Part shown: positions 10,100 to 36,918 of the stretch, piece after piece
Numbering within the stretch: position 1 is the first letter of the stretch
How the letters are laid out: each line of letters opens with the position of its first letter
Assembly (NCBI GenBank): GCA_031261585.1
Contig: JAISJJ010000034.1
Span: 1 to 44,575 of the forward strand
Reading direction: 5' to 3'
From: Oscillospiraceae bacterium
GTDB lineage: Bacteria; Bacillota; Clostridia; Oscillospirales; Oscillospiraceae
Length of the DNA: 44,575 nucleotides
Notes under the pieces: generated by a model
The model's input: the letters and a program-made list of their open reading frames with translations, nothing else
Database searches by the model: none
Told to the model about the DNA's origin: nothing
Translations under genes and position numbers: made by a program

Positions 10100-10277
10100 C
10101 GTGGACACATCGCGTTGATTAATTGGTTGTGAGCGCGAACATTTTTGTAGGGGCGGGGTTAACCCGCCCTTATGTGTTTGTATTACGTGATGCGAAAAGG
10201 GCGGGTAGACCCCGCCCCTACGAAACGCGAATCCGAAAATTTGATGCCGACATGTTTTCAACGCGGTGTGTTGTGCC
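10100..10277. repeat. MITE-like element carrying a REPIN (copy A)
   Basis: GTGGACACA...GAGCGCGAAC...[REPIN 10147-10221]...ACGCGAATCCG...TTTTCAACGCGGTGTG; aligns to copies at 27342 and 36755. Confidence 0.6.
10147..10221. repeat. REPIN-like inverted pair, subtype GTAGGGGCGGGGTTAACCCGCCC
   Basis: GTAG at 10147, CTAC at 10218-10221. Confidence 0.85.
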
Positions 10278-12307: not shown

Positions 12308-12392
12308 GTCAGCCCTCCGCAGATAGTTACAGCAGTGTATGCGGCGGCGCGTGAGGGTGACAATGAGACGCGTGATGTGTTTCGACGCGGAC

Positions 12393-12471
12393 GTAGGGAC
12401 GGACGACCCCGTCCGTCCGAGTTTCCGACAGCACAACCCCAAACAGGACGGACAGAGTCGTCCGTCCCTAC
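12393..12471. repeat. REPIN-like inverted pair, subtype GTAGGGACGGACGACCCCGTCCGTCC
   Basis: Inverted arms with GTAG/CTAC ends, 79 bp. Confidence 0.8.
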
Positions 12472-12490
12472 GAACGCACCAAAACAAACA

Positions 12491-12529
12491 AAAAAAGACG
12501 AGGGTCACGGCATAGCCGTAACCCTCGTC
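12491..12529 (-). terminator. Intrinsic terminator downstream of rplA (minus strand)
   Basis: Minus strand: GACGAGGGTTACGGCTATGCCGTGACCCTCGTC followed by a T-tract; same hairpin at 31289-31321. Confidence 0.85.
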
Positions 12530-12533
12530 CCCA

Positions 12534-12558
12534 ACTGTTAATTGTTAACTGTTAATTG
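12534..12558. repeat. TTAACAGTTAACAATTAACAG-type short-period array next to terminator
   Basis: ctgttaattgttaactgttaattgc. Confidence 0.7.
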
Positions 12559-13746: not shown

Positions 13747-13832
13747 TGGCAATTAACAGTTTTCAATTAACAATTAACAGTTGCCTTTTCACAAAATTGT
13801 TAATTGCTGATTGCCAATTGTCAATTGACGTC
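13747..13832. repeat. TTAACAATTAACAGTT / TTGTTAATTG short-period array between rplK and nusG
   Basis: caattaacagttttcaattaacaattaacagttgcc...aattgttaattgctgattgccaattgtcaattgac. Confidence 0.75.
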
Positions 13833-21978: not shown

Positions 21979-21980
<2 letters not shown>

Positions 21981-22026
21981 TTGACAGTTGACAATTGACA
22001 GTTGACAATTAGAACGAGGGTTACGG
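21979..22026. repeat. TTGACAGTTGACAATT array plus one arm of the shared terminator hairpin (ACGAGGGTTACGG)
   Basis: Same array-arm order as downstream of pheT and rplA, but the second arm is missing. Confidence 0.7.
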
Positions 22027-22036
22027 GGCAGTGTCA

Positions 22037-22537
22037 ATGAAAAGCGTTGGGAATAGAAAAAGCACACGGTTGAGGGGCTATGACTATTCAGCCGATGGTG
22101 TATATTTTGTAACATTCTGTGTTACGGACAGACATGAGATGCTGAGCGAAGTTGTCGTAGGGGCGGGGTCTACCCGCCCTTGGGTAGAATTATTGCCGCA
22201 TGGAATAGTTGTTGAAACAGCTGTTTCGCATATACCCGATAAATACAGTCATGTAGCAATAGACAAATACGTTATCATGCCGAACCATGTCCATTTCATT
22301 ATGTCAATCCAAGGGCGGGTTGACCCCGCCCCTACGTTGGGTCAAATCGTTGCTTATTTGAAGTATCAAACCGCAAAGACGGCTGAAACGCGCGAACTAT
22401 GGCAGCGCGGATTCTATGACAGAATCATCCGAAACAGCGACGAATATCGGAGAATCTGGCAGTATATTGACAACAATCCAGCCACATGGCGAGAAGATCG
22501 TTATTACGTAAACAGGGCTGATGCAAGTCATGTTTGA
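22037..22537 (+). CDS. REP-associated tyrosine transposase (RAYT, Y1/HUH superfamily) with two in-frame REP sequences
   Basis: RLRGYDYSADGVYFVTFCVTDRHEM...IMPNHVHFIM (HUH)...IVAYLKYQTAKT...FYDRIIRNSDEYRRIWQYIDNNPATW; alternative GTG start at 22031. Confidence 0.88.
   Translation: MKSVGNRKSTRLRGYDYSADGVYFVTFCVTDRHEMLSEVVVGAGSTRPWVELLPHGIVVETAVSHIPDKYSHVAIDKYVIMPNHVHFIMSIQGRVDPAPTLGQIVAYLKYQTAKTAETRELWQRGFYDRIIRNSDEYRRIWQYIDNNPATWREDRYYVNRADASHV
22157..22179. repeat. REP (GTAGGGGCGGGGTCTACCCGCCC) inside RAYT CDS, translated as VGAGSTRP
   Basis: GTAG plus GGGCGGG/CCCGCCC hairpin. Confidence 0.85.
22313..22335. repeat. Inverted REP (GGGCGGGTTGACCCCGCCCCTAC) inside RAYT CDS, translated as GRVDPAPT
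   Basis: Reverse complement of the 22157 REP except in the loop. Confidence 0.85.
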
Positions 22538-22601
22538 AGAGATATCCGCGTTTTTCAACGGCGCACCGAGATATCGACCAATCGGACACGGAGGTTACAC
22601 A

Positions 22602-27341: not shown

Positions 27342-27514
27342 GTGTGGACAAATGACGCTGACGGATTGATCATAAGCGCGGATCTTATGTAGGGGTCGGT
27401 CTTGACCGACCCGCTGCTGTGCCTTGCGGACAACGGGCGGGTCAAGACCCGCCCCTACGACTACGCGAATCCGCAATTACGGTATCGCATATTTTCAATG
27501 CGACATGTCCACAC
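27342..27514. repeat. MITE-like element with 9-bp TIR GTGTGGACA/TGTCCACAC carrying a REPIN (copy B)
   Basis: Perfect 9-bp TIRs at 27342-27350 and 27506-27514; internal REPIN 27389-27458. Confidence 0.75.
27389..27458. repeat. REPIN-like pair with unequal arms GGGTCGGTC / GGGCGGGTC
   Basis: GTAG at 27389, CTAC at 27455-27458. Confidence 0.85.
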
Positions 27515-31255: not shown

Positions 31256-31287
31256 GTTAACAGTTAACAATTAACAATTAACAGTTA
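31256..31287. repeat. TTAACAGTTAACAATTAACAATTAACAGTT array
   Basis: Same array type as at 12534, 13747 and 21979. Confidence 0.8.
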
Positions 31288-31288
31288 G

Positions 31289-31327
31289 GACGAGGGTTGC
31301 GGTTTTGCCGTAACCCTCGTCTTTTTT
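31289..31327 (+). terminator. Intrinsic terminator after pheT
   Basis: GACGAGGGTTGCGGTTTTGCCGTAACCCTCGTC + TTTTTT. Confidence 0.88.
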
Positions 31328-32703: not shown

Positions 32704-32726
32704 GGGCGGGTAAACCCCGCCCCTAC
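32704..32726. repeat. Single REP, GTAGGGGCGGGGTTTACCCGCCC (minus orientation)
   Basis: Same subtype as the REPs within the RAYT gene. Confidence 0.8.
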
Positions 32727-34108: not shown

Positions 34109-34303
34109 ACGGCTACCGCATTTACTTTTCGCAAATACAAAACCCGCGTCATTGCGAGCCGCGCGAAGCAATCCAGAACCCCTGCTGCTCACGTCCCACT
34201 CCCGTAAAACGAGGGCTTGGACGGAGAAACGGAGACTGGATTGCTTCGTGCGCTCGCAATGACGGGGGTTGGCACGCGAGAAAAAAGTAAACGAGGTAGC
34301 CGT
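34109..34303. mobile_element. MITE-like element, TIR ACGGCTACC/GGTAGCCGT, flanked by 12-bp direct repeat GCCTTACTACCC
   Basis: Direct repeats 34097-34108 and 34304-34315; inner core GTCATTGCGAGC...GAAGCAATCCAG...CTGGATTGCTTCG...GCTCGCAATGAC. Confidence 0.75.
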
Positions 34304-36465: not shown

Positions 36466-36603
36466 GGCGTTATGTCTCCTGCTGATAAAATATCAGTAAA
36501 TAATACCACAAAAACCGCGAAATGTCAAGCGTCTCGCCGCTGTAAATTGCCCGTTCGCAAATTGTATAACATATGCATTACTATGCTCACGTACCAAAAC
36601 CTC

Positions 36604-36716
36604 GTCATCGCGAGCGCACGAAGCAATCCAGACCCCGCAACCCACGTCCTGCCCCGTAATATGCGGAGTTAGACGGAGAACGGGGTTCTGGATTGCTTCG
36701 CGCGGCTCGCAATGAC
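36604..36716. repeat. Second copy of the GTCATYGCGAGC...GAAGCAATCC inverted-repeat element
   Basis: Matches 34148-34263; flanked on the right by aaaaagtaaatgcggtag, also related to element 1. Confidence 0.75.
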
Positions 36717-36754
36717 GGGTGAAAAAGTAAATGCGGTAGAAGTGGCGTGAGGGG

Positions 36755-36918
36755 ACGCGGCAGCGTTGAAAATTTGCGGCACCACGATTACGGATTCATG
36801 TCACCGTAGGGGCGGGTCTTGACCCGCCCGTTGTCCGTTTTGTCACAGCGGAGGGTCGGTCAAGACCGACCCTTACATAAGGTTCGCGATTAAAACCAGA
36901 TACACAAAGTCCACACGC
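36755..36918. repeat. MITE-like element carrying a REPIN (copy C, opposite orientation to copy B)
   Basis: Reverse complement aligns to 27342-27514 through TTATGTA[A/G]GGGTCGGTCTTGACCGACCC and GGACAACGGGCGGGTCAAGACCCGCCCCTACG. Confidence 0.7.
36806..36876. repeat. REPIN-like pair with unequal arms GGGCGGGTC / GGGTCGGTC
   Basis: GTAG at 36806, degenerate TTAC at 36873-36876. Confidence 0.8.

Follow-up and report, generated by a model that had tools for sequence, protein, structure and literature searches.

What holds a pair of inverted REP palindromes inside the reading frame of a RAYT gene, when the REPs of the classic REPtron flank theirs? The question is raised by a RAYT gene in the 44,575-nucleotide stretch of Oscillospiraceae DNA analysed here (the window), whose relevant features are as follows.

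22031..22537, + strand: RAYT/TnpA_REP gene (Y1 HUH endonuclease), 168 aa; ORF call, Y1_Tnp PF01797, motifs, alignment and 4er8 match
22157..22179, + strand: REP1, a GTAG foot plus palindrome read in frame as residues 43-50 (VGAGSTRP); sequence, genome pattern search and structure model
22180..22312, + strand: coding spacer of 133 bp from REP1 to REP2 (helix, strand and HUH strand); sequence, alignment and model
22286..22294, + strand: codons of the HUH motif HVH (H86, H88); sequence and alignment
22313..22335, - strand: REP2, the inverted partner of REP1, read in frame as residues 95-102 (GRVDPAPT); sequence, genome pattern search and structure model
22463..22465, + strand: codon of the probable catalytic tyrosine, Y145 in YIDNNP; sequence and alignment, assigned by analogy with 4er8-type TnpA_REP

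The ORF starts with GTG, with a second in-frame start candidate (ATG) at 22037, and its coordinates include the stop codon; an earlier note on this DNA had recognized the gene correctly but extended it to 22540, three bases past its true end. The two inverted in-frame REPs lie where that note had put them, REP1 reading GTAGGGGCGGGGTCTACCCGCCC on the + strand and REP2 reading GGGCGGGTTGACCCCGCCCCTAC, or GTAGGGGCGGGGTCAACCCGCCC on the minus strand. The RAYT/Y1 identity proposed there also stands: PF01797 (Y1_Tnp) matches the protein above its cutoff (E = 4.9e-6), and 4er8, a TnpA_REP bound to a REP hairpin, is both the top solved-structure match by sequence profile (E = 1.2e-13) and the first-ranked fold in a fold search (E = 3.7e-8, TM 0.60). 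The NCBIfam RAYT model NF047646 scores the protein at 64 bits, under its cutoff of 80. In an alignment of 30 sequences H88 and Y145 are invariant and H86 nearly so, the HUH motif being NHVH in the window protein; with HUH and tyrosine both retained, the gene does not look like the dead copy that the note had reckoned with. The coordinates place REP2 between the HUH motif and the probable catalytic tyrosine, as had been claimed. In the AlphaFold model (mean pLDDT 86.9) the REP1 residues form the loop joining strands 39-42 and 51-54, and the REP2 residues that joining the HUH strand 86-93 and helix 103-118, so that both inserts lie in surface loops of the predicted structure, a point that the note had left to modelling.

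The TnpA_REP subclass 2.4 was defined in 2018 (PMC6006769) by the motifs NH[IFV]H, WQ and YIxNNP and equated there with Bertels RAYT group 4; having NHVH, WQ and YIDNNP, the window RAYT would by its motifs belong to this subclass and group. The text of that study, whose sample leans towards Cyanobacteria and Bacteroidetes, describes in-frame REPs within subclass 2.4 genes, generally between HUH and Y, besides flanking REPs, and REP2 shows this very feature. It further notes an 8-aa insertion elsewhere in the protein, not called a REP. The likeness extends to GTAG REPs whose stem base has three G-C pairs, a frame-keeping insertion and a variable HUH-Y insert. In-frame REPs inside subclass 2.4/group 4 RAYTs are therefore already published, and the basic phenomenon is not new. 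However, the main text of PMC6006769 reports no two-site inverted matched pair, DNA-constraint test, match between gene and REP population or alternation with the flanks. What we add to that text is thus a fixed two-site inverted pair in Clostridia, its matching within the gene, the constraint on its DNA, its match to the repeat population of the host and its alternation with flanking REPs. The RepRanger paper (PMC12306157) mentions neither RAYT nor transposase.

The arrangement is far from confined to the window gene. Our 152 RAYT loci comprise three of the window genome, 69 of related genomes and 80 named ones found by scanning bacterial and archaeal genomes. Of these loci 147 could be scored with relaxed REP detection; strict scoring leaves 95 two-site genes. 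Under relaxed detection REPs occupy both loops in 101 of the 147 homologs, about two thirds, which bears out the recurrence that the note had thought possible, and at least one internal REP is present in 129. A matched inverted pair lies within the gene ± 200 bp in 107 of the 147; of 869 control windows, each 900 bp long, nine contain one. REP1 begins 11 or 12 residues past a T-x-C motif in most genes. Both sites are present in 44 of 58 named Clostridia loci and in two of 18 loci labelled as from other phyla or unplaced, most of these 18 having REPs in the second loop alone; hence, the two-site form looks like a clostridial variant. In the Chloroflexi and Nitrospirae relatives L160, L170 and L174 the second site alone holds a single double-foot REP (GTAG...CTAC), which agrees with the description of subclass 2.4. 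A search of viral contigs gave no match. Enlarged inserts occur in the RAYT ORFs L100, L101, L102, L132, L135 and L172: several contain REP units multiplied in tandem, L132 has a lengthened spacer, and site 1 of L101 holds a long repeat rich in proline and threonine.

Within the pair, relative inversion is nearly invariant, being found in 94 of the 95 strictly scored genes: 92 are +/-, two are -/+ (L002, L165) and one is +/+ (L108, a double detection). L002 and L165 are flipped at both sites together, and since the L002 ORF is open throughout with both its REPs reversed, the protein tolerates the reverse orientation. The conserved feature is the relative inversion of the pair, not its absolute orientation. 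Stems differ widely from gene to gene while the two REPs within each gene match, with a core edit distance of 1.27 within genes against 8.1 between them (lowest of 1000 permutations, 7.4). Even among paralogs of one genome the within-gene distance is 1.44 against 7.94 between paralogs, which makes the pair gene-specific and not merely genome-specific. REP similarity drops as protein similarity drops, with both sites shifting together, and compensatory changes are seen in the arms of both REPs in L044 and L107. In L034, L038 and L171 an unpaired position is common to both REPs of the gene (ends GCGTCC or GTCGTCC), so that the imperfection is matched too.

Does this conservation reside in the peptides or in the DNA? 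If the loop peptides were what matters, the palindrome would be a by-product of constrained amino acids, an explanation that we regard as highly improbable. The V-G that opens site 1 in nearly all members, with the GTA of REP1 in frame 0 in 83 of 84 genes, agrees with it, but this V-G results from the GTAGGG foot, and the peptides are otherwise almost wholly different between genes, site 1 alone having 69 distinct octapeptides that vary freely. Stem pairing is 97.5% and 97.7% at the two sites, as against 51% and 52% under random synonymous codings of the same residues; given this and the freely varying peptides, amino-acid constraint leaves the palindromes unexplained. Further, the two sites read the matching DNA on opposite strands, and amino acids therefore cannot enforce the match. 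Between proteins of 60-70% identity an identical residue has the identical codon in 88% of cases in the REPs versus 48% elsewhere. This is the unselected version of a comparison of 13 gene pairs hand-picked by eye among close relatives, one of which, L071/L076, has REPs that are 96% identical in genes that are 64% identical over the remainder. The earlier note had pictured homologs that keep the amino acids in non-palindromic codons; the homologs instead show other amino acids with other intact palindromes. The constraint appears, from these sequence comparisons, to act on the DNA hairpins, with selection preserving them rather than the encoded amino acids, and the family would offer a clear case of coding DNA held to a hairpin rather than to a peptide.

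The REPs of the gene also belong to a larger repeat population, some of whose members lie elsewhere in the window.

10147..10221: intergenic inverted pair (REPIN) of the window RAYT's REP subtype, 10147-10169 (+) and 10199-10221 (-); pattern search
32704..32726, - strand: single REP of the window RAYT's subtype; pattern search

That these intergenic REPs share the subtype of those inside the RAYT had been seen correctly before. The 11-mer core occurs eight times in the window at up to one mismatch, as against 0.46 expected, and none of the shuffles reaches eight; the full 23-mer has 135 copies at up to three mismatches in the 2.28-Mb genome, with none for the reversed control. At up to one mismatch the subtype has 115 copies in its own genome, associating the gene with a genome-wide GTAG-REP population. 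The same threshold finds six copies in one congener, none in eight others and no more than eight in any one of the 43 other genomes covered. The window genome holds three RAYTs, the internal REP subtypes of which have 115, 56 and 43 genomic copies, and the latter two subtypes have at most one copy in any congener searched. Elsewhere, the types of L100, L059 and L078 have 63, 52 and 13 own-genome copies, respectively. In most cases tested, the REP type of the gene is thus also that of a repeat population mostly private to the genome. This match was judged from whole-genome pattern searches because local 8-kb flanks are too sparse in cognate copies (5 in 46 loci versus about 0.7 expected). The idea that the inserts always match the REP subtype of the host holds for the window gene and for most cases tested, with L071/L076 as an exception, whose REP type is found in just those two genes and one other copy; copies may have been missed there, G012 and G032 being only 83% and 63% complete. 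Some REP types are shared by several genomes, partly with a related RAYT and partly without. About 23 REP loci were sampled in the window genome, two of them deep in long ORFs (L008, L024), neither of which has a Pfam match. The window RAYT has a GC content of 43% outside its REPs, versus 58% for the window, which suggests horizontal acquisition; this low GC and the near absence of the subtype from congeners fit the gene having brought its REP type along.

Where a gene lacks the internal pair, its REPs are often found outside. No flanking REP was detected within 500 bp of the window RAYT, which in this respect departs from the classic REPtron arrangement. Flanking REPs within that distance accompany 13 of the 95 genes with both internal sites as against 28 of the 57 others (Fisher p = 3.5e-6), and genes without an internal REP are often flanked by REPs (L054, L060, L075, L138, L152, L155, L169). 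In L036, L056, L095, L133, L157 and L180 the matched inverted pair straddles a gene end, one REP being internal and the other flanking. What stays constant seems to be the presence in cis of two matched, inverted REPs, located in the flanks or in either loop, and the internal pair looks like the place where the gene keeps its own REPs instead of in the flanks. The window RAYT shares with the classic REPtron, represented by the E. coli TnpA_REP with its flanking REPs/BIMEs and by 4er8, the fold, the HUH-Y core, the cognate inverted REPs in cis and the genome-wide REPs, and it differs in having its REPs inside the ORF rather than beside it. With REPINs (PMC3116915) it shares the unit of two inverted REPs, but its spacer is 133 bp of enzyme coding sequence, which is absent from the genomic REPINs examined. 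We also considered the internal pair with the core between as a mobile unit and rejected this: none of 20 genomic REP-pair loci from four genomes (G064, G000, G047, G072) encodes a RAYT core, so that, as far as these loci show, the inverted pair is there without being the mobile multi-copy unit with a short spacer that a REPIN is. These four genomes do have REP pairs at wider spacings, some near the in-gene spacing, those of G064 being nested REPINs; in its loci L183-L191 an inner pair GTAGGGCGCGGCATCC.../GTAGGGGCCGGCATCC... lies within an outer GTAGGGCGGGACC pair, in repeated copies.

Host REPs could instead be neutral passengers, repeatedly inserting or being replaced in two tolerant loops and alike through youth or through template-switch correction of inverted arms. 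Both sites are surface loops with variable peptides, REPs do multiply in tandem inside ORFs (L100, L102, L135, L172), and GTAG REPs have been reported inside unrelated genes (PMC3733652), where GTAG/CGTC REPs, like the Rickettsia palindromic elements (RPE), are palindromes translated in frame into short peptides at tolerant places. The host genes in those cases are, however, unrelated to the repeat, whereas here the host gene encodes the probable processing enzyme of the repeat, and the sites are fixed and the REPs paired. Passenger status also fits poorly with gene-specific matching among paralogs of one genome, with an inversion that is hardly ever broken despite tolerance of the reverse orientation (L002, L165), with stem sequences that follow protein divergence as in vertical inheritance, and with the constrained synonymous sites; L071/L076 preserve their pair although no genomic pool is there to renew it, and the conservation found already counts against the idea. 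We consider it unlikely.

A further possibility is autoregulation, in which the pair would be an operator or RNA element: the enzyme might bind or nick its own gene or mRNA, or a stem between REP1 and REP2 might limit translation or mRNA stability and keep expression low. We advance self-binding through DNA or mRNA as a hypothesis, the evidence bearing on it being the strong predicted REP1-REP2 stem, which is the dominant element of the fold predicted for RNA (-90.9 kcal/mol, z = -7.7) and for ssDNA (z = -7.0). The near-invariant inversion also speaks for it, and the L071/L076 pair, preserved in diverging genes with almost no genomic copies, is as expected for an action in place. An intragenic stem would, however, be melted by ribosomes, and relatives with one or both REPs in the flanks have no coding-region hairpin. 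On balance, autoregulation by itself seems to us somewhat unlikely.

Across Clostridia, then, the pair is in frame, inverted, self-matching and DNA-constrained at two fixed loops, and we propose that a cognate REP pair has moved into the ORF of its own enzyme as a linked substrate or source, a reading to which we give an even chance. One cognate REP would have come to lie in the loop past the first core strand and its inverted partner in the loop past the HUH strand, both within the reading frame. The RAYT would recognize and cut these GTAG hairpins in ssDNA, as the E. coli TnpA_REP does, and would have spread them as REPINs through the genome. Permanently linked, the in-gene REPs could serve as both substrate and source in place of the flanking REPs of the classic REPtron, so that a horizontally acquired RAYT would thereby import its own repeat family; as the two loops seem to accept almost any peptide, the hairpins would be cheap for the fold to keep. 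That the likely substrate lies inside the enzyme's own gene, as suggested earlier, has good support as an association, with self-targeting or autoregulation as a possible consequence. Several observations weaken this reading. G064 (95% complete) has 59 copies of the L100 REP type with no matching RAYT found, and L071/L076 keep their pair almost without genomic copies, something that a pure source role would not require. The pairs of L002 and L003, both in the window genome, are similar and not identical, and local flanks hold few cognate copies. Arm-to-arm conversion together with vertical inheritance could also yield part of the within-gene matching. A broader formulation, that clostridial RAYTs carry a selected, self-encoded REPIN, that is, paired hairpins in the gene of the enzyme that act in place as an operator or genome-wide as a donor, with the gene revealing its REP family, we hold tentatively, at slightly below an even chance.

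The arrangement bears on how RAYTs recognize and spread REPs and on why transposases that do not jump persist. Should the gene carry its cognate hairpins, many RAYTs could be paired with their substrates directly from sequence. It would then be possible to test how enzyme and hairpin co-evolve, also where one genome holds several RAYTs that differ in specificity. L071/L076, whose pair has almost no genomic copies, sets a role in place apart from spread through the genome.

The window contains other repeats as well. A family of GTTGACA/ATTGACA tracts that lead into GACGAGGGTTACGG, in other places a full palindrome, occurs at 21980-22026, 31256-31327, 12491-12558 and 13759-13805, the first of these stopping just short of the RAYT start. 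Long inverted repeats of the CGTCATTGCGAGC...GCAATCC family lie at 34147-34270 and 36597-36717, with up to 36 nt at 100%. There are also other REP subtypes: GTAGGGACGGACGACC... at 12378-12486, and GTAGGGGTCGGTCTTGACCGACCC at 27373-27501 with 36763-36892, the latter being the subtype found inside the RAYT L002 of the window genome, with 56 copies.
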